From positions 3,208-53,316 of the forward strand of contig LBPR01000003.1 in the NCBI GenBank assembly GCA_000990305.1: a stretch of DNA of 50,109 nt. Direction: 5' to 3'. The notes under the pieces are model-generated. The model had not been told where the DNA came from and did no database searches. It was given only the letters and a program-made list of their open reading frames with translations. This document shows positions 29,991 through 42,128 of this stretch, piece by piece. Origin of the DNA: Candidatus Roizmanbacteria bacterium GW2011_GWC2_34_23 (GTDB taxonomy: Bacteria > Patescibacteriota > Microgenomatia > UBA1406 > GWC2-37-13). The position numbers and the translations under genes are program-made. Position 1 is the first letter of the stretch. Every line of letters starts with the position of its first letter.

Positions 29991-30018
29991 TTGACAAAAT
30001 GATATTTTGTGCTAATAT
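29991..30018 (+). promoter_or_regulatory. Promoter of the Phd/PIN pair
   Basis: TTGACA (29991-29996), a 16-nt spacer, TAATAT (30013-30018). The ATG is 8 nt downstream. Confidence 0.75.
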
Positions 30019-30026
30019 GGTTATAT

Positions 30027-30305
30027 ATGAACAACATTGTTAATATTTCTGATTTCAGAAACAATATTTCCGACTATATTAATAGAGTAATTTATAATAA
30101 AGACTCTTTTTTATTGAAAAAAGGCAAGTCAATTGTGGCTAAGGTTGTTGTTTATAAAGAACAGAAAGAACTCTTAATTGAAGATAAAATAAAAAAATAT
30201 GCTGGAATTTGGTCAGATAAAGAAGCGAATTTGATAAGAAAATATGCCAGAAAACTTAGAAAGGAAGTAAAGTTAATTCCAAGAAAATATGATCTATCTG
30301 GTTGA
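30027..30305 (+). CDS. Phd/YefM-type antitoxin
   Basis: 92 residues from ATG 30027 (MNNIVNISDFRNNISDYINR). The N-terminal DNA-binding fold fits Phd/YefM: VNISDFRNNISDYINRVIYN then SFLLKKGKSIVAKVV. The C-terminal 35 residues, basic and flexible, would neutralise the toxin. It overlaps the toxin gene by 17 bp, the usual TA arrangement. It has its own TTGACA/TAATAT promoter and would be leaderless. Confidence 0.85.
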   Translation: MNNIVNISDFRNNISDYINRVIYNKDSFLLKKGKSIVAKVVVYKEQKELLIEDKIKKYAGIWSDKEANLIRKYARKLRKEVKLIPRKYDLSG

Positions 30306-30681
30306 TACAGATGTCATTATCGATTTTTTAAAGAATCAAAAACCTGCTATTGACTTATTTAATAAAATAAACAGCGAACTAATTAAAATAAGTGTCATTA
30401 CTTTCCTGGAAATAGAATATGGAATAAAAAAATCTTATCATCCTGAAAAAAAGAAAGAGGAATTTATAAATTTTATGAGTGAATTCTCGATAGAAATAAT
30501 CGCTATCAGCCCTACAATTGCTGAAGAATTTGTCAAATTAAAAATTAATTTGGAAAAGCAAAGACAACCTTTAGCTGATTTTGATCTATTCATTGCCGCA
30601 ACGGCAATAGCAAACAACCTATCTTTAGTGACCAGAAATATTAAGCATTTTAAGAGAATTAAAGATTTAAAACTTCATTAA
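30289..30681 (+). CDS. PIN-domain (VapC-like) toxin
   Basis: 130 residues. The acidic PIN residues are visible: D6 in YLVDTDVIIDFL, E about 42 in TFLEIEYGI, D about 97 in LADFDLFIAATAI; LVTRNIKHFKRI completes the fold. It should be an RNase cutting tRNA or rRNA, held by the upstream antitoxin. The pair lies between two copies of the guaA end. Confidence 0.88.
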   Translation: MIYLVDTDVIIDFLKNQKPAIDLFNKINSELIKISVITFLEIEYGIKKSYHPEKKKEEFINFMSEFSIEIIAISPTIAEEFVKLKINLEKQRQPLADFDLFIAATAIANNLSLVTRNIKHFKRIKDLKLH

Positions 30682-30683
30682 TT

Positions 30684-30704
30684 GCGACGATGGAATGGGA
30701 ATGA
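30684..30704 (+). repeat. guaA 3'-end direct repeat, copy 2 (partial)
   Basis: GCGACGATGGAATGGGAATG, one substitution relative to guaA over the first 20 nt, sitting three bases after the toxin stop. Confidence 0.8.
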
Positions 30705-30714
30705 TTTTTTGCTC

Positions 30715-30743
30715 TTGACAAACACAATGTCATACTTTATCCT
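30715..30743 (+). promoter_or_regulatory. Promoter of the AbiE pair
   Basis: TTGACA (30715-30720), a 17-nt spacer, TATCCT (30738-30743). The ATG is 8 nt downstream. Confidence 0.65.
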
Positions 30744-30760
30744 GTACATATATGTACAGG
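30741..30760. promoter_or_regulatory. Perfect 20-bp palindrome over the AbiEi start (candidate operator)
   Basis: CCTGTACATATATGTACAGG covers part of the -10 box and the ATG. AbiEi antitoxins are known to bind inverted repeats in their own promoter. Confidence 0.6.
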
Positions 30761-31285
30761 ATAGATACCCTATTAAAGCTAAAAGAGAAGTTATTTCATA
30801 CCAATGATCTGGCTTTGTTGTGGGGGATAACCAACAAAAATACTCTTTATACAACAATAAAAAGATATGTTCAAAAAGGAATTTTAATTCCTATTCACAA
30901 AGGATTTTATTCAACTATCCCAATTGATCAAGTGGATCCTTTCAAACTGGCCATCGGCTATCTTCATCGTTTTGCTTATATCAGTTGCGAGACGATCCTT
31001 ATCAGAAAGGGGATTATTTTCCAAAAAGAAAATTACCTAACTCTAATTTCCAGTGTTTCAAAAAAATTTTCCGTTGTCAATCATTCTTATTTGGTCCGTC
31101 GCCTAAAAGATACTTATCTATACAACGATCGTGGGATAGATATAATTAATGGTGTAATGATGGCTGGTGTTGAGCGGGCTGTAGCCGATCTGTTATATTT
31201 TAATCCCGAATTTTACTTTGATAACGAGAAGAAAATTGATTGGAAAAAAGTAAAACAAATCCAAAAGGAGGTAGGGTATCTATGA
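30752..31285 (+). CDS. AbiEi-like antitoxin / transcriptional regulator
   Basis: 177 residues. The N-terminal winged helix (LFHTNDLALLWGITNKNTLY, then TTIKRYVQKGILIPIHKGFY) is followed by an AbiEi-type C-terminal domain (YISCETILIRKGII and GVERAVADLLYFNPEFYFD). It is the partner of the nucleotidyltransferase downstream; the two overlap by ATGA. In known AbiE systems this protein represses the operon and counteracts the toxin. It has a perfect palindrome over its start codon. Confidence 0.82.
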   Translation: MYRIDTLLKLKEKLFHTNDLALLWGITNKNTLYTTIKRYVQKGILIPIHKGFYSTIPIDQVDPFKLAIGYLHRFAYISCETILIRKGIIFQKENYLTLISSVSKKFSVVNHSYLVRRLKDTYLYNDRGIDIINGVMMAGVERAVADLLYFNPEFYFDNEKKIDWKKVKQIQKEVGYL

Positions 31286-32013
31286 TATTATCAAAAAAAG
31301 AAGATGTTCTTCATAAAGCTCAATTATTACGATTATTGATTGAGATTTTGGATAACTCAATAGCAAAAAACATTTATTTTAAAGGTGGCAGCGCCGCTGC
31401 TATGTTGGGATTTTTAGACCGGTTTTCTGTTGACCTAGATTTTGATTTAAGACCGAAAGCTGATAAAAAAGTAATTGACAAAAATTTAATAAAAATTTTT
31501 CGAAAGCTTGATTTAAAAATCAGTCAAAAAAGCAATAAATCATTATTTTATCTTCTCAAATATTCGGCTAAACCTGGCTCAAGAAATACAATAAAACTAA
31601 GTCTGATCGATACGGCATTAAAATCAAACCTTTATTCCTCTTTTTATCTTACGGAGATTGATCGTTTTGCATTTTGTCAGACTTCAGATACGATGTTTGC
31701 CAATAAATTGGTCGCTGTGACAGACCGTTATAAAAAACATAAAATGATTGCCGGACGTGATATTTATGATATTCACCACTTTTTTTTATCGGGTTTTTAT
31801 TATAATAAAGAGGTTATTAAAGAAAGAACGGGAAAACGACCAACCGATTATTTTAAAGATTTGATAAAGTTTATTGATACCAAAATTACCGATAAAATAA
31901 TAAACGAGGACCTGAGTTTTTTATTGGCTTATGAAAAATTTAAGTTAATAAAAAAAGTTTTAAAAAGAGAAACATTGATGTTTTTGAAAGATGAAGTTAA
32001 AAGATTAAAATAG
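31282..32013 (+). CDS. AbiEii-type nucleotidyltransferase toxin
   Basis: 243 residues from ATG 31282, which overlaps the previous stop. A strong Shine-Dalgarno AAGGAGGT lies 9 nt upstream, a contrast to the leaderless first gene. The core is YFKGGSAAAMLGFLDRFSVD then LDFDLRP (GGS...DxD catalytic motif), then TMFANKLVAVTDRYKKHKMI and GRDIYDIHHFFLSG, matching the AbiEii/DUF1814 family. Known members block growth or phage by nucleotidylating tRNA or similar. The pair forms a defence-type TA unit between guaA-end repeats. Confidence 0.87.
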   Translation: MILSKKEDVLHKAQLLRLLIEILDNSIAKNIYFKGGSAAAMLGFLDRFSVDLDFDLRPKADKKVIDKNLIKIFRKLDLKISQKSNKSLFYLLKYSAKPGSRNTIKLSLIDTALKSNLYSSFYLTEIDRFAFCQTSDTMFANKLVAVTDRYKKHKMIAGRDIYDIHHFFLSGFYYNKEVIKERTGKRPTDYFKDLIKFIDTKITDKIINEDLSFLLAYEKFKLIKKVLKRETLMFLKDEVKRLK

Positions 32014-32051: not shown

Positions 32052-32876
32052 ATGGACTTTAAATACTTTTCACAAAACGGAAAAATATTACCGATCGAAC
32101 AGGCCGTCATTCCAATAAGTAATATCGAATATTCTTATGGTTTTGGAGTTTACGAAAATATTAGGATTTCAAATGGTACAGTTTATTTTTTAAAAGATCA
32201 CACGGATAGACTTCTTGAGTCAGCAAAAATAATTGGATTAACCCATTCGTTTGACGAAGAAATTATAAAGAATAGCATTTTAGATCTTATTAAGGATTAT
32301 AAATCAGAGACTTTTAATATTAAAATTCTTTTAATTGGTGCTTCAACGAAAGAAAAAGCTATTTTAAATATTTTCTGTCTCAATCCGCTATTTCCTGACA
32401 AAAAATTATATCGAGATGGAGCAGAATTTATTACTTACAACTATGAAAGGCCGTTTCCTCATGCAAAAACGCTCAATATGTTGCAAAGTTATCTTGCTTA
32501 CAGTAAAGCAAAAAAATCGGGAGCGTATGATGCTCTTTTGATAAATCAGAATGGTTTTATTACCGAAGGAACAAGAACAAACTTTTTTTGTATAAAAGGG
32601 AAAATAATTTACACGCCTTTTGAGAAAGATATTTTACTGGGAGTGATGAGAAAGGTAGTCTTAAAAATTGCCTCGGAAAATAATTATAAAATTGTCGAAA
32701 CAAATATAAAATTTGATGACATTAAATCTTATGATGGGGCCTTTGTGACGAGTACTTCCTCAAAAATTATGCCAATAAAATCAATTGATGGGATTTTGGT
32801 TGGCTACCCAGACGAATTAAAAGAATTAATGAAACTACTTAATAATTTTTTGGAAAAAAATTTCCTGTTGCATTGA
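32052..32876 (+). CDS. Class IV (branched-chain type) PLP aminotransferase
   Basis: 274 residues. The fold-type IV pattern is present: NIEYSYGFGVYENIRI at the N terminus, HTDRLLESAKIIGL, the catalytic Lys in HAKTLNMLQSYLAY, then YDALLINQNGFITEGTRTNF and the C-terminal VTSTSSKIMPIKSIDG. It could be a branched-chain aminotransferase or an aminodeoxychorismate-lyase-like enzyme; the sequence alone favours the former slightly. The gene starts right after the third guaA-end repeat and is followed by the attenuator promoter. It was probably adjacent to guaA before the island arrived. Confidence 0.8.
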   Translation: MDFKYFSQNGKILPIEQAVIPISNIEYSYGFGVYENIRISNGTVYFLKDHTDRLLESAKIIGLTHSFDEEIIKNSILDLIKDYKSETFNIKILLIGASTKEKAILNIFCLNPLFPDKKLYRDGAEFITYNYERPFPHAKTLNMLQSYLAYSKAKKSGAYDALLINQNGFITEGTRTNFFCIKGKIIYTPFEKDILLGVMRKVVLKIASENNYKIVETNIKFDDIKSYDGAFVTSTSSKIMPIKSIDGILVGYPDELKELMKLLNNFLEKNFLLH

Positions 32877-32895
32877 AAAAAAATATCTGTATAAT
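32868..32895 (+). promoter_or_regulatory. Promoter of the tyrosine leader operon
   Basis: TTGCAT (32868-32873), a 16-nt spacer, TATAAT (32890-32895). It overlaps the 3' end of the aminotransferase gene. The leader ATG lies 9 nt downstream, so the leader message has almost no 5' UTR. Confidence 0.7.
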
Positions 32896-32904
32896 TTAAT
32901 AATC

Positions 32905-32973
32905 ATGAAAATTATAGCAACTCAAAATTTTTATTTTTACTTTGACCCACCTTGCGGTGGCGGTTGTAGCTGA
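32905..32973 (+). CDS. Leader peptide with Phe-Tyr-Phe-Tyr-Phe (attenuation peptide)
   Basis: 22 codons starting MKIIATQNFYFYFDPP and ending GGGCS, stop TGA. Codons 9-13 alternate Phe and Tyr (TTT TAT TTT TAC TTT at 32929-32943). Like the pheST or pheA leader peptides of enterobacteria, such a run is a sensor of charged tRNA. The downstream genes include tRNA-Tyr and tyrosyl-tRNA synthetase, the obvious targets of Tyr sensing. The peptide itself is not expected to have another function. It is below the size most gene callers report. No Shine-Dalgarno is seen, consistent with leaderless initiation. Confidence 0.75.
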   Translation: MKIIATQNFYFYFDPPCGGGCS

Positions 32974-33021
32974 ACAAAGCAAAAATAAAAACCGACCCCC
33001 GCACACGCGGGGTTTTTTTTT
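32928..33021 (+). promoter_or_regulatory. Transcription attenuator (mutually exclusive hairpins)
   Basis: Region 1 CCACC (32947-32951) pairs with GGTGG (32956-32960). Region 2, GCGGTGGCGGTT (32954-32965), can instead pair with region 3, AACCGACCCCCGC (32990-33002), giving 11 pairs with one bulge and one mismatch. Region 3 otherwise forms the terminator stem with region 4. A further stem pairs the Phe/Tyr codons (32928-32944) with 32975-32991, 16 of 17 bases. A ribosome stalled on the Tyr codons would mask region 1, letting 2:3 form and preventing termination. A ribosome at the TGA would mask region 2, allowing termination. Confidence 0.75.
32997..33021 (+). terminator. Rho-independent terminator of the attenuator
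   Basis: CCCCGC (32997-33002), loop ACAC, GCGGGG (33007-33012), then a run of nine T. It lies between the leader peptide and the tRNA gene. Confidence 0.9.
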
Positions 33022-33032
33022 GGGTTAATTTT

Positions 33033-33104
33033 CCGTGGGTGGCAGATCGGCGATGCAACGCTCTGTAAAAGCGTATCAAGTAGGTTCAACTCCTACCCCA
33101 CGGA
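33033..33104 (+). tRNA. tRNA-Tyr (anticodon GUA), archaeal/eukaryal type
   Basis: 72 nt. Acceptor CCGTGGG/CCCACGG (perfect), D stem GCA/TGC, anticodon stem ACGCT/AGCGT with loop CTGTAAA (GUA at 33065-33067), a 5-nt variable loop ATCAA, T stem GTAGG/CCTAC with loop TTCAACT, discriminator A, no encoded CCA. Ordinary bacterial tRNA-Tyr has a long variable arm and a G1-C72 pair. This one has a short variable loop and C1-G72, the archaeal/eukaryal identity elements. It agrees with the synthetase type encoded 1.1 kb downstream. The following ATG is only 2 nt away. Confidence 0.93.
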
Positions 33105-33106
33105 CT

Positions 33107-34189
33107 ATGAAAAATAATATAGGTAATTACACACATCAAGTAGAAAACCATGATAAATTTATCCGTTTTGATTTAACGGAGGGTAATTGTTGGTTTCGAG
33201 ATAAAATATCTGAGTGGAATAAAGCAATAAATATTTCCGATGTTATTCATTACCCTGATGAAAAAATAATCAGCGTCAAAAAATTATTATCCCGTTGGTT
33301 ACATGTTAAACAAAATAATATCACGATAGGTAGTGGTAGCGATGAATTAATCGAGATGATTCCAAAGATTTTTATCAAGCAGAAAGATAAAGTTTTAACG
33401 GTTGCTCCATCATTTTTTCGTTTTATTGAATCATCGGAGCGAGCAGGGGCAAAAATCACTACAGTTAAACTAGACAAAGATAGTTATTTTGAATGGGATA
33501 ATTTAACAATCAAAGGATTTTTGAAAAAGGCAAAAGATAAGAAAGTAAAATTGATTTGGTTAGCTAGTCCCAATAATCCAACTGGGACAGAAGTCCCAAA
33601 ACAAATTTTGCTGGAAATAATTAGACTGGGGAAAATAGTTGTTATCGATAAAGTCTTGAATGGCTTTACTAAAGAGTTACGGGAAATATCTCAGTTAATT
33701 TGGGATAATCCAAATTTAATCGTTCTGTCAAGTTTTTCCAAAACGTTTGGTCTACCAGGTTTAAGATTTGGATTTGCTATTTCCGCTCAGGATAAAATCG
33801 AAGTAATGGAAAAAAGAAGATTGCCTTTTAATGTCAGCGGACCCAGTTTATTTATTGTTGAAAAATTACTTCAGTCGTTATTATCAGGTGAGGTAAAGAT
33901 GGGAGGAGCCTTTAATTTTTTTCAGGAACGGATATTTTTTGAAGAGCAGATTAAGAAATTAAAGAATATTAGATTGGCCAGTAATTCTAAAATTAATTTT
34001 GTTTTATTACAAACAGTTGGCCGATTGAATTTGTTTAAAAAATTAGTAGAAAAAGGTGTTTTAGTGACAGATTTAAATCAAACGATCGGAATTAAAAACA
34101 AAAATTTTGTTAGAGTTACGTTACGCGATAGACAGAATAATCAAATTTTATTAAAAGCTTTAAAAAAGATTGATAATCATTTTCATTAA
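33107..34189 (+). CDS. PLP aminotransferase, HisC/aromatic-type
   Basis: 360 residues from ATG 33107; an upstream reading frame from 33035 runs through the tRNA and is not real. Class I/II pattern: NNITIGSGSDELIEMIPKIF, WLASPNNPTGTEVPK, the PLP Lys in VLSSFSKTFGLPGLRFGFAI, and FVRVTLRDRQNNQ at the end (Arg binding the carboxylate). It resembles histidinol-phosphate/aromatic aminotransferases. The usual DEAY motif is altered to DKVLNG, which is odd. Its place between tRNA-Tyr and TyrRS suggests an aromatic amino acid substrate (inferred). The mRNA would begin 2 nt before the ATG after tRNA 3' processing. Confidence 0.8.
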   Translation: MKNNIGNYTHQVENHDKFIRFDLTEGNCWFRDKISEWNKAINISDVIHYPDEKIISVKKLLSRWLHVKQNNITIGSGSDELIEMIPKIFIKQKDKVLTVAPSFFRFIESSERAGAKITTVKLDKDSYFEWDNLTIKGFLKKAKDKKVKLIWLASPNNPTGTEVPKQILLEIIRLGKIVVIDKVLNGFTKELREISQLIWDNPNLIVLSSFSKTFGLPGLRFGFAISAQDKIEVMEKRRLPFNVSGPSLFIVEKLLQSLLSGEVKMGGAFNFFQERIFFEEQIKKLKNIRLASNSKINFVLLQTVGRLNLFKKLVEKGVLVTDLNQTIGIKNKNFVRVTLRDRQNNQILLKALKKIDNHFH

Positions 34190-34215: not shown

Positions 34216-35334
34216 ATGTCTACTAAAGACCGTTTGGATTTAATTAAACAAGTTGGTGAAGAAATTATTCAGGAGGAAGAGTTAAAGAAACTTTTAGAAA
34301 GCGGAGAAGAGTTAATCGCCTATGACGGATTTGAACCTTCTGGACAGATCCATATTGCCCAGGGTATTCTTCGCGCCATAAATGTCAATAAAATAATCAA
34401 AGCCGGTGTTAAGTTTAGGATGTGGGTGGCCGACTGGCATGCGATGGCGAATAACAAGATGGGCGGCGATCTTGAAAAAATAAAAATTGTGGGAAAATAT
34501 TTTATTGAAGTTTGGAGGGCCTCCGGAATGGATCTTTCTAAAGTTGAATTTATGTGGGCTTCGGATATGGCCAAAGACCCTGACTATTGGAAACTAGTGG
34601 TACAGGTTGGAAAATCAAATGCACTGAAAAGATTTATCAGAACTGCTGAAATGATGGGTCGCGAGGAGTCACTTGATAAACTGACCGGCGCTCATATCAT
34701 ATATTCTTGTATGCAAGTAGCCGATATTTTCAAACTTGGTGCAAAAATTACGCAACTGGGGATGGATCAAAGAAAGGTAAATATGTTGGCTCGCGAAGTT
34801 GGACCAATGCTTGGGTATTGGAAACCGGTGGTCGTCTCACATCATATGTTGATAGGCTTGGGAAAACCAATGCCCGTAGAGACGCAAAATCTTGCGTCTC
34901 TACAAAACGACAAATTACAACGTACAATTGCTATAAAGATGTCAAAATCTAATCCTGACTCAGCAATTTTTATGACTGATACAACTGAAGATATTGAAAG
35001 AAAAATCAATAAAGCTTACTGTCTTGAAGGGGACATTAAAGAAAATCCAATTTTAGAATATTTTAAATATATAATTTTCGAATCCTTTGAGAAATTACGG
35101 ATTAACGAATTACGGATAGAGAGACCGGAAAAATTTGGCGGGAATATTTCTTTCAAAACATATACTGAATTGGAAAAAACTTTTGCCGAAAAAAAAGTCC
35201 ACCCGATGGACTTGAAAGCGGTTTTGATCAAATACTTAGATCAGCTCATCGAGCCGGTCCGGCGCCATTTTGAAGAAGATCCAAATGCGAGAAAACTTTT
35301 AGAGCAAGTCAGGAGTTTTCAGGTAACGAGATAA
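34216..35334 (+). CDS. tyrS: Tyrosyl-tRNA synthetase, archaeal/eukaryal type
   Basis: 372 residues, the length of archaeal/eukaryal cores and without the bacterial S4-like C-terminal domain. AYDGFEPSGQIHIAQGILRA (HIGH-like), VADWHAMANNKMGGDLEKIK, YSCMQVADIFKLGAKITQLG, MDQRKVNMLAREVGP and IKMSKSNPDSAIF (KMSKS) follow the plant/archaeal type. This class recognises C1-G72, which the tRNA at 33033 carries. A 28-bp palindrome (34876-34903) is read in frame as ETQNLASLQN just before the KMSKS loop. -10 TATAAT lies 6 nt before the ATG. Confidence 0.93.
   Translation: MSTKDRLDLIKQVGEEIIQEEELKKLLESGEELIAYDGFEPSGQIHIAQGILRAINVNKIIKAGVKFRMWVADWHAMANNKMGGDLEKIKIVGKYFIEVWRASGMDLSKVEFMWASDMAKDPDYWKLVVQVGKSNALKRFIRTAEMMGREESLDKLTGAHIIYSCMQVADIFKLGAKITQLGMDQRKVNMLAREVGPMLGYWKPVVVSHHMLIGLGKPMPVETQNLASLQNDKLQRTIAIKMSKSNPDSAIFMTDTTEDIERKINKAYCLEGDIKENPILEYFKYIIFESFEKLRINELRIERPEKFGGNISFKTYTELEKTFAEKKVHPMDLKAVLIKYLDQLIEPVRRHFEEDPNARKLLEQVRSFQVTR
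34876..34903. repeat. In-frame palindrome in the tyrS gene
   Basis: GTAGAGACGCAAAATCTTGC, continuing GTCTCTAC. Adds about nine residues near the KMSKS motif. Confidence 0.85.
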
Positions 35335-35377: not shown

Positions 35378-36868
35378 ATGAATTTATCATCATTGATAAA
35401 ATCCTTTAAAGAAGAAAAAAAGTTAAAAATATCTCCTCGTCCCTACATTAATCATTCAGTTGAGTTTAAAAAAAGCTATTCTTCAGTTGAACGGGTCAAA
35501 ATACTGGAAAAAGTCGGCTTAAATGTTTTCTTTTTTCCGGCCGAGATGATCACTGGTTGTGATTTTTTATCAGACTCTGGGACAACCACAATGACAAATA
35601 AGCAATGGGCGGCGCTTCATCTAGGAGACGAATCGTATGGTTCAAATCGCGGTTATTTTCAGCTGATTGAAATAATCAGAAAAACTTTTGGAGAAGAATT
35701 TTTTAATAGTCCGGAAAAAGGTTTGCCGAATGCTTTTCTCTTTCATCAAGGCCGTCCCTGTGAAGATGCCTTGTTTACTGCGCTTGGAAGATTGGGAACT
35801 GGTCAAATTATCCCCAGTAATGGTCATTTTGATACAACGGCCGCTAATATTGAGATCAACAAAATAAAAGCAGTTAACCTTTTTTCTAAAGAATTAACCG
35901 ACGAAAAAAGTACTTCACATTTCAAAGGAAACATGGACACGGTAAAACTTAAAAAATTATTAAAAACAAATAATCAAAAAATTCCATTGGTTTATATGAC
36001 AATTACCAATAATACCGGTGGCGGCCAACCGGCATCTCTTGCTAATATTTGCGAGGTGGCAGAGATCGTTCATAGTTATAATCTGCCGTTTTTTATTGAT
36101 GCCTGCCGCTTTGCTGAAAACGCCTGGTTTATAAAAACTTATGAAAAAGAATTTAAAAATAAAACTATTTTGGAAATAGTCCAAAGAATATTTAGTTACT
36201 GTGATGGGATAACAATAAGTTTTAAAAAAGATGGCTTGGTTAATATGGGCGGGGGATTATTCATCAAAAATAATGGTTTTTTTATGAAAAAATATCCTCA
36301 TCTTCCTGAGGCGATTTTGGATTATCAAATTGTGAAAGAGGGTCATCCAACCTACGGTGGAATGTCAGGGCGGGATATCATGGCCTTGGTCGAAGGATTA
36401 AAAACAGTCGTTAACGAAGATTATTTGAAATATCGTATCAGTCAGGTTGCGCGGTTTGGCCAGGTAATGCTTGATAATAATATTCCGGTGATTAACCCAA
36501 TCGGAGGTCATGCAGTATATCTGGATATTAATAAATTTTTTAAGGGGACAAAGATGAAGCCGGAAGATTTTGGGGGAATTTCTTTAACTGCATTATTACT
36601 ATCCTTATATGGTCATCGGGCTTGTGAATTAGGTTACTTTGCCTTCGGGTCATATAACAAAAAAACTGGAGTTGAAACTCATCCGGACGTTAATTTTGTC
36701 CGGTTTGCCGTTCCCCGCTTGCGTTACGAAGACCAGGATTTAATGGCCAGTGTTGAAGCAGTCAAAGCCCTTCATGATAATCGTGATTTAATCCCTAAAG
36801 TTAAAGTAGTCTACGGAAGAGAATTAACTCTCCGCCATTTTAAATCCCGATTTACATTTGAAAAATAA
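35378..36868 (+). CDS. tnaA: Tryptophanase (beta-eliminating lyase)
   Basis: 496 residues. The fold-type I beta-eliminating family pattern is clear: FLSDSGTTTMTNKQWAALHL, GDESYGSNRGYF, FLFHQGRPCEDAL, and the PLP Lys in TISFKKDGLVNMGGGLF. Residues that separate tryptophanase from tyrosine phenol-lyase favour tryptophanase: FDTTAANIEI has Asp where lyase has Thr, RACELG has Leu where lyase has Arg, and LRHFKSRF has the His of E. coli TnaA. It would split tryptophan into indole, pyruvate and ammonia. It is the last gene of the Tyr-attenuated group, 43 bp after tyrS. Confidence 0.82.
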   Translation: MNLSSLIKSFKEEKKLKISPRPYINHSVEFKKSYSSVERVKILEKVGLNVFFFPAEMITGCDFLSDSGTTTMTNKQWAALHLGDESYGSNRGYFQLIEIIRKTFGEEFFNSPEKGLPNAFLFHQGRPCEDALFTALGRLGTGQIIPSNGHFDTTAANIEINKIKAVNLFSKELTDEKSTSHFKGNMDTVKLKKLLKTNNQKIPLVYMTITNNTGGGQPASLANICEVAEIVHSYNLPFFIDACRFAENAWFIKTYEKEFKNKTILEIVQRIFSYCDGITISFKKDGLVNMGGGLFIKNNGFFMKKYPHLPEAILDYQIVKEGHPTYGGMSGRDIMALVEGLKTVVNEDYLKYRISQVARFGQVMLDNNIPVINPIGGHAVYLDINKFFKGTKMKPEDFGGISLTALLLSLYGHRACELGYFAFGSYNKKTGVETHPDVNFVRFAVPRLRYEDQDLMASVEAVKALHDNRDLIPKVKVVYGRELTLRHFKSRFTFEK

Positions 36869-41035: not shown

Positions 41036-42024
41036 TAAGGTAGAAATTTATTGGTAAATAAAGAGTTAAAATCAATAACAGTTTTTGAATTAAGGATAAA
41101 TTGAGGATATCCAGTCCAGGATTTAATGTCTTGAATTCCCCACTGTCTTTTTTTGTCAGCGTAATTTTTACTCATAAAATCTTGACTGGCAAAAACAAGT
41201 TTTGGATTGGGAAAAGTATCTTTGGGCGCCGTACTGATAAGAATTTGAGCCGATTCTTTTGGAAAAAGACGAGCATATTCATAACCCTGAGCCGTGGCTG
41301 TCATAAATTTTTTTAATAATTTAGGAGAGCTCTTTATTTTATTAGGCGTTACAACAAAAACCACAGTTGGAGAATCAGGAATTCCGTACTGAGTTAAAGG
41401 AAAAAAATTAAATTTTAGTCCATCAAAGCGCGCCTGAACGACTTCCCAACCGGAAAAAACCCAAACAAAATCAATCCGTTTACTTTCTAATGCCTGCATG
41501 GCCCCAATATCTAAAACAACATTTTTAAAATTACCGATACCACCGTCCTTTTTAATAATCTGTGAAATTATAGGATTTTCAAAAGGTGAACCATATCCCC
41601 CATAAATTTTTCCGTCAAGATCTCTTGGCCGGTTGATACCGGAATCTTTAAGAACAATCAGTCCGGAAGTATTATGCTGTAAAATAGCTCCGATTGAGAC
41701 GATGGGATTATTTTTCGCTGTTTCGCCGACGACGTCTTCAATAAAACTAATTCCGGCATCGGCTTTTTCACTTGTCACCAAAACGCTTGAAGAAACGTTA
41801 GGGGAGTAGGGAAGAATTTTTAAATCAAGTCCCTGTTCTCTATACCAATTTTTGGCCAAGGCAACGTAAACACCCGTGTGATTTGTATTTGGAGTCCAAT
41901 CAAAAGCAAGCTTGAAAGGAGTTGATTTACTAGATTGAGTGACGACTTTATTACTAATAATTTTAATAGCAACAAAGGCAGTAAATGAAATAAGAAGAAT
42001 GGCAAGCAAGCGATTTTTTTTCAT
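41035..42024 (-). CDS. NMT1/ThiY-like substrate-binding protein (thiamine uptake)
   Basis: 329 residues. A signal or anchor helix (LAILLISFTAFVAIKIISNK) is followed by the NMT1/THI5-like domain: FKLAFDWTPNTNHTGVYVAL, GYGSPFENPIISQIIKKDGG, and WVFSGWEVVQARF. Such domains bind formylaminopyrimidine or thiamine. No lipobox Cys is evident, so it may be anchored by the N-terminal helix. Its message begins with a TPP riboswitch whose last bases carry the Shine-Dalgarno. Confidence 0.88.
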   Translation of the reverse strand: MKKNRLLAILLISFTAFVAIKIISNKVVTQSSKSTPFKLAFDWTPNTNHTGVYVALAKNWYREQGLDLKILPYSPNVSSSVLVTSEKADAGISFIEDVVGETAKNNPIVSIGAILQHNTSGLIVLKDSGINRPRDLDGKIYGGYGSPFENPIISQIIKKDGGIGNFKNVVLDIGAMQALESKRIDFVWVFSGWEVVQARFDGLKFNFFPLTQYGIPDSPTVVFVVTPNKIKSSPKLLKKFMTATAQGYEYARLFPKESAQILISTAPKDTFPNPKLVFASQDFMSKNYADKKRQWGIQDIKSWTGYPQFILNSKTVIDFNSLFTNKFLP

Positions 42025-42030
42025 AATCTT

Positions 42031-42118
42031 TTCCCTCCGCTGGCATTATCCAGATCAGGTTTTCAATGGGTCTCCCGTTTTTTCGGGTTTCTCAGCCTGT
42101 GTCACAAGCTCCCCCAAC
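42031..42118 (-). ncRNA. TPP riboswitch (THI box)
   Basis: On the minus strand the conserved aptamer elements occur in order: GGGGGAGCTT, GGCTGAGA, ACCC, then ACCTGATCTGGATAATGCCA and GCGGAGGGAA. The GGAGGG at the 3' edge is also the ribosome-binding site, about 10 nt before the ATG at 42024. TPP binding would thus hide the start region and shut off uptake. A -10 TATAAT lies at 42129-42134 (minus). Confidence 0.95.
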
Positions 42119-42128
42119 TTATGAAAAC

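Follow-up and report, generated by a model that had tools for sequence, protein, structure and literature searches.

A tRNA-Tyr gene and the gene of its charging enzyme, tyrosyl-tRNA synthetase (TyrRS), appear to stand under a classic type of control in an uncultured ultrasmall bacterium. In a contig of Candidatus Roizmanbacteria bacterium GW2011_GWC2_34_23, their operon is preceded by what is very likely a classical ribosome-mediated transcription attenuator: its elements are present and conserved, its pairings are mutually exclusive and covary, and together they argue for a switch in which a stalled ribosome would bring about readthrough. More broadly, our comparisons make it probable that Patescibacteria, above all the Microgenomates-type class, have a repertoire of ribosome-mediated attenuators spread across the lineage, nearly leaderless and often in tandem, over much of amino-acid metabolism and several synthetases, with swaps against T-boxes at the tRNA-Tyr/TyrRS operon within one genus and with a tRNA gene controlled by shortage of its own charged product. 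The features of the locus are given below in coordinates of the window, that is, the whole 50,109-nt stretch of DNA that was analysed.

32052-32876, + strand: upstream class IV (IlvE/D-amino-acid type) aminotransferase gene, whose end overlaps the -35 element; the same neighbour is found in the homologous locus L006
32868-32895, + strand: promoter as a whole, from the sequence and homologous leaders
32868-32873, + strand: -35-like element TTGCAT, from the sequence
32890-32895, + strand: TATAAT of the extended -10 element TGTATAAT, after a 16-nt spacer from the -35, from the sequence and from homologous leaders, which have a -10 in this position
32905-32973, + strand: leader ORF of 22 codons, peptide MKIIATQNFYFYFDPPCGGGCS, with ATG at 32905 and stop codon at 32971-32973; similar peptides in L006, L007, L013, L014, L021 and L022
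32929-32943, + strand: control codons TTT TAT TTT TAC TTT (Phe-Tyr-Phe-Tyr-Phe), a run kept in homologous leaders
32947-32951, + strand: region 1, CCACC, partner of GGTGG (32956-32960) in the 1:2 hairpin
32954-32965, + strand: region 2, GCGGTGGCGGTT, inside the leader ORF, with region 1 and region 3 as alternative partners
32990-33002, + strand: region 3, AACCGACCCCCGC, 3′ arm of the antiterminator and 5′ arm of the terminator
32997-33021, + strand: intrinsic terminator (3:4), CCCCGC ACAC GCGGGG followed by nine T's, from a terminator call and covariation
33033-33105, + strand: tRNA-Tyr(GUA), anticodon GTA in the DNA, from a tRNA search
33107-34189, + strand: HisC-like class I/II aminotransferase (PF00155; TIGR01141 below its cut-off)
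34216-35334, + strand: TyrRS (NF006330, 369.6 bits, cut-off 220)
35378-36868, + strand: tryptophanase-family beta-eliminating lyase (PF01212; NF009709, 475 bits, cut-off 285)

The promoter, the 22-codon leader, the five-codon Phe/Tyr run, the three pairings and the nine T's, which an initial annotation had described from the letters alone, are thus all in place, and so is the operon that it named (tRNA-Tyr, aminotransferase, TyrRS, tryptophanase), the last gene being that of a tryptophanase-family lyase. The short leader ORF directly follows the promoter, its control codons fit the function of the downstream genes (FYFYF before tRNA-Tyr and TyrRS, kept in relatives before aromatic genes), and the terminator lies between the leader and the first gene. 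Only 9 nt separate the -10 element from the leader ATG, so that the expected 5′ UTR measures about 0-4 nt, and in 45 of 69 leaders a -10 is located 4-14 nt 5′ of the ATG, compared with 19% expected. Given this short distance in many leaders, the ORF is probably translated from a nearly leaderless transcript, which agrees with the earlier suggestion that the leader may start without a 5′ UTR. The window promoter is missing from the hits of a simple promoter scan.

We then compared these elements with chance expectation and with known RNA models. At the composition of the window, a five-codon F/Y run within 22 codons has an expected probability of about 1e-4, and no other five-residue F/Y run occurs among the 13,922 window residues of ORFs longer than 150 aa. 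The 2:3 duplex (32954-32965 with 32990-33002; 11 pairs, one mismatch and one bulge; -15.8 kcal/mol) is stronger than all of 200 dinucleotide shuffles, and the 1:2 hairpin (-7.4 kcal/mol by folding) is stronger than 98.5% of shuffles (z -2.6, p 0.015). The 3:4 stem (CCCCGC 32997-33002 with GCGGGG 33007-33012; -11.9 kcal/mol) runs directly into the T tract at 33013-33021. The Rfam model Phe_leader (RF01859), which derives from other bacteria, scores 41.3 bits on the window stretch (E 7.8e-6 for 261 bases), which does not reach its gathering score of 55; in relatives the same model scores 33-38 bits.

Based on this anatomy, we propose that RNA polymerase would start a few bases 5′ of the leader ATG and that a ribosome would load on the nearly leaderless ORF. 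A shortage of charged tRNA-Tyr or tRNA-Phe would stall the ribosome within FYFYF, where it would cover CCACC of region 1 and leave region 2 (GCGGTGGCGGTT) free to pair with region 3 (AACCGACCCCCGC) before region 4 is synthesized; the terminator would then not form, and tRNA-Tyr, aminotransferase, TyrRS and lyase would be transcribed. When both tRNAs are charged, the ribosome would reach the stop codon and cover region 2, and the CCCCGC/GCGGGG stem with its nine T's would end the transcript. We modelled these states in 66 leaders by folding the RNA outside the ribosome footprint at the point before region 4 is made. With the A site at the best run codon, the antiterminator forms with a mean probability of 0.92 and exceeds 0.5 in 66 of 66 leaders; with the ribosome at the stop codon, the mean is 0.06 and one leader of the 66 exceeds 0.5. 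This contrast is partly built in, since region 2 is hidden once the ribosome sits at the stop codon. The informative comparison is with shuffled segments, in which the run-stalled value falls from 0.89 to 0.49. For the window leader itself, the probabilities are 0.84 with the ribosome in the run and 0.05 with it at the stop codon.

The 1:2 hairpin (32947-32960) is overlapped by a ribosome stalled in the run, but is too weak alone to exclude 2:3: with no ribosome, 2:3 still forms in 45 of the 66 leaders, window included (0.80), indicating that 1:2 is not the main guard. Termination is probably caused instead, according to the footprint model, by a ribosome that translates the leader to its end, region 2 being made up of the leader's final codons. 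The mutually exclusive pairings of the initial annotation and their folding around a ribosome are supported; by folding, 1:2 does not outcompete 2:3 on its own. In full-length equilibrium folding of the window leader, the terminator is favoured in all states, even with a stalled ribosome, which implies that the switch must be kinetic, that is, co-transcriptional. The switch of classical attenuators is likewise assumed to be kinetic.

Homologues of the leader allowed the pairings to be examined by their changes. A DNA search of 57 relatives found homologues at 83-84% identity in two genomes of the same genus and weaker copies elsewhere, before other genes; aligned across genomes, they keep the Phe/Tyr run. 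In the 1:2 and 3:4 pairs, changes on both sides exceed those of shuffles (0 of 500), in an alignment that is model-fitted to these pairs. The mutually exclusive 2:3 pairing overlaps the 5′ arm of the terminator and is stronger than shuffles (p up to 0.05) in 82% of 66 leaders; it showed no covariation in fixed columns of the model-fitted alignment, because its register slips between leaders. In a register-free swap test, region 2 pairs with the terminator arm of its own leader at -14.4 kcal/mol, compared with -11.6 kcal/mol with the arms of other leaders, and none of 20,000 permutations was as good; GGAGGG, for example, is matched by CCCTCC terminators. The swap test was made before the fixed-column test, and we judge it the better measure for 2:3. 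Compensatory change, which had been proposed as a check on all three pairings, is thus seen for 1:2 and 3:4 and, by the swap test, for 2:3, but not for 2:3 in fixed columns.

The closest homologues also bear on what the leader senses. In L006, a leader of 84% identity (MKIIATQNFYFYFDPPCGGCNC) follows the same class IV aminotransferase gene and precedes DAHP synthase and 3-dehydroquinate synthase (aroB). The run holds three Phe and two Tyr codons, and the leader before tRNA-Tyr and TyrRS is an aromatic rather than a Tyr-specific one: Phe is read too, and DAHP synthase is the gene governed by the leaders most similar to it. To judge from these neighbours, its probable source is an aromatic-biosynthesis (aro) operon. 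It might even be a mere remnant of such a DAHP synthase operon, with its hairpin ending the transcript of the upstream aminotransferase and with tRNA-Tyr/TyrRS on another promoter, a reading with which the L006 arrangement agrees, as does the lack of a DAHP synthase match in the own genome, a weak point given that this genome is 80% complete. We consider it improbable, as the window has kept a complete promoter, run, T tract and set of three pairings, tRNA-Tyr starts 11 nt past the T tract with none of the listed promoter-like sites between terminator and tRNA, and Phe/Tyr leaders also precede the TyrRS operons of relatives. A DNA search with leader and tRNA together found the exact leader/tRNA-Tyr junction in none of the 57 relatives; seen on a single contig of an incomplete MAG, the junction could be an assembly join or a recent rearrangement.

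If the attenuator acts as proposed, too little charged tRNA-Tyr, whether the tRNA itself or tyrosine is lacking, would raise tRNA and synthetase together, provided that this is the sole tRNA-Tyr gene. One match to tRNA-Tyr(GUA) was found in the own genome (a MAG 80% complete, in 29 contigs); if it is indeed the sole gene, termination must be leaky. Further upstream, before the aminotransferase gene, window positions 30009-32013 hold antitoxin-like and PIN-like ORFs and then two ORFs resembling an AbiEi/AbiEii pair; in L006, this aminotransferase gene is likewise preceded by the antitoxin-like and PIN-like ORFs, but not by the AbiEi/AbiEii-like pair. The window also contains a TPP riboswitch (RF00059) at 42015-42125 on the - strand, with 62.1 bits, over the gathering score.

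To follow the leader type beyond close relatives, we used a covariance model built from ten aromatic leaders; most of the leaders come from this search, with a bias towards the GG.GG/CCCCG motif. Within the family, which comprises Candidatus Roizmanbacteria-type Patescibacteria, the model matches 63 of 72 genomes (E up to 0.01); it also matches 46 of 281 genomes of the class (E up to 1e-4) and 8 of 362 genomes of a phylum sample. The seven phylum matches besides the window all have ORFs with F/Y/W runs, and most a clear terminator. The leader also occurs in public records, which bear the names Candidatus Roizmanbacteria or Patescibacteria or are unnamed bacterium MAGs. The attenuator is not unique to this locus; its type is widespread in the family and present elsewhere in the phylum, which suggests, on the strength of these model matches, that it is common in Patescibacteria.

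The repertoire extends to other amino acids. FYFYF and its kin precede DAHP synthases, prephenate dehydratase (PheA), pheS and TyrRS operons, and an aromatic leader also stands before a DeoC-type aldolase whose sequence looks like that of a 2-amino-3,7-dideoxyheptulosonate synthase. His leaders (LHHHPHFGG and VHHHLPNGG) precede HisRS, LLL leaders LeuA-like synthases, IIVSIIL (Ile/Val) leaders a PLP aminotransferase, and a Ser-rich leader a SerB-like phosphatase. CTTTT (Thr) leaders stand before proteins for which Pfam gave no match in the single case tested (L057). Several runs match their downstream genes (HisRS, HisG, LeuA-like); for some others the link is not evident. Pfam was run on ten downstream products, and the remaining gene names are readings of translated sequences.

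Several observations were made alongside. The own genome (G000) holds two further candidate attenuators: MKQFNNKTISFFSHHTSPQAGSPIM, with an SHH leader, before hisG (L056; G000:C17:19308-19447, - strand), and MSKNNLNKVCTTTTRLVLGGG, before the gene without a Pfam match (L057; G000:C11:6935-7056, - strand). After the Thr (CTTTT) leaders of L049, L057, L070 and L075, the next proteins carry related motifs (LADTHGRFNGY, LADVHGRFNGY), and possibly form one threonine-related family. Tandem attenuators, in which an operon is preceded by a pair of run-codon leader ORFs and a pair of terminators one after the other, occur in L028, L029, L031, L034, L040, L053, L054, L059, L067, L070, L075, L149, L151 and L175, and are of aromatic, Thr, Ile/Val and Tyr types; in L029 and L059, a GGAGG sequence precedes the second leader. 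In L007 (650-740) and L014 (1600-1715), the first terminator is followed, still ahead of the next gene, by a long imperfect hairpin formed of CCACC..GGTGG or CCCTCC..GGAGGG around an inner AGTAGAAATCTACT-like stem.

The same comparisons speak to the possibility that the nascent peptide is an arrest peptide, either TnaC-like or stalling at the DPP polyproline, that senses a free aromatic ligand. TnaC is used by tnaA-type operons; here the leader ends in FYFYFDPPCGGG, the last gene of the operon is of the tryptophanase family, and in one relative (G385) a Trp/Tyr leader, SWYY, precedes a lyase-like gene on the same contig as a T-box/tRNA-Tyr operon. We give this possibility a very slim chance, because the residues past the run vary (DPPCGG, DPKPGG, DPPQGG, TRQRGG, YSALGG, TPLLAG) while the CC..GG RNA pairing is kept, because His, Thr, Leu and Ser leaders have the same layout, and because no conserved TnaC-type arrest sequence beyond the run was seen among the homologues. 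In addition, the pattern TTYGAYCCNCCNTGYGGNGG matched the window alone among 380 genomes of the phylum, so that the FDPPCGG peptide is not the conserved feature. Three matches of another pattern scan, in Nereida (L107), SAR86 (L111) and Patescibacteria (L108), were discarded as chance, with no leader layout in the stretch inspected.

For a less biased set than the one gathered by the covariance model, we fetched the DNA upstream of TyrRS by TyrRS position in 40 genomes. Phe/Tyr leaders stand upstream of the TyrRS operon in about nine of these relatives, and some are strikingly Tyr-specific, such as RQSSYYYYQLLYRGG, KYYYFLA and YYYY leaders before TyrRS operons. As exceptions, the second leader of L148 fails the shuffle test, and L157 is without a terminator by the criterion used. 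Leaders before the TyrRS operons of L144, L149, L150, L151, L157 and L175 share, beyond the Tyr run, a pattern like RQxSYYYYQLLYxG, suggesting that they form a distinct Tyr leader family.

In four relatives (G385, G395, G396 and G432), a T-box is followed by tRNA-Tyr, aminotransferase and TyrRS, in some with further genes in between; their T-boxes fall below the Rfam cut-off but carry the AGGUGGUACCG core or a sequence near it. T-box-like elements directly upstream of a tRNA-Tyr gene were noted in L010, L161, L166 and L177 (43-58 bits, gathering 93), and a sub-threshold T-box match is present in 36 of the 72 family genomes. The predicted leader of the window thus occupies the place that a T-box holds at the tRNA-Tyr operon of the four relatives, and the two sensors are exchanged at this operon. 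That the window hairpins themselves bind tRNA directly as a T-box does, or act on translation rather than by ribosome-mediated termination, is hardly credible despite these relatives: T-box RF00230 has no match in the own genome (E up to 0.001) or in 32850-33110 (E up to 10), the hairpin is followed by nine T's, and the first gene to follow encodes a tRNA, with no translation to control.

Taken together, these results favour ribosome-mediated attenuation at the tRNA-Tyr/TyrRS operon. If real, the repertoire would let these host-dependent cells of reduced metabolism sense amino-acid supply directly, would point to coupled transcription and translation in Patescibacteria, and would allow some of their amino-acid needs to be read off the leader codons. 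The presence of a T-box in one species and of a leader peptide in its sister, before the same tRNA/synthetase operon, would be a natural experiment. A leader peptide should be able to respond to a missing tRNA as well as to missing charging, and a T-box, which needs uncharged tRNA, should not. As the initial annotation had supposed, we found no prior description of attenuation, or of a T-box, in Patescibacteria in the open-access papers searched; a 2024 review mentions riboswitches as engineering tools alone (PMC11665869).

The attenuator resembles known systems in several respects. pheST is a synthetase operon under attenuation (PMC1262725), and the Phe leader of the proteobacterial pheA/pheST attenuators (RF01859) shares with the window a short Phe-rich leader ORF, alternative 2:3/3:4 hairpins and a T-rich terminator; the window differs in its Phe plus Tyr run, its nearly leaderless ORF, the placement of region 2 inside that ORF, a tRNA as first gene, and its phylum. 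Ribosome-mediated attenuation has also been proposed for the aminoacyl-tRNA synthetase genes trpS and leuS of Streptomyces (PMC1262725), candidates that concern other amino acids in another phylum, with no operon tRNA gene mentioned. Leader-peptide systems were previously known from Proteobacteria and Actinobacteria alone, to which Firmicutes were added (PMC2965389). In that phylum, hisS exchanges a T-box for a His leader peptide between species (PMC2965389), a likeness in that one synthetase family is under either sensor in different species. The T-box (RF00230) senses uncharged tRNA directly, and stands before the same operon in relatives but is absent at the window locus; in contrast with hisS, the exchange described here appears to have taken place at a tRNA-Tyr/TyrRS operon, within one genus.
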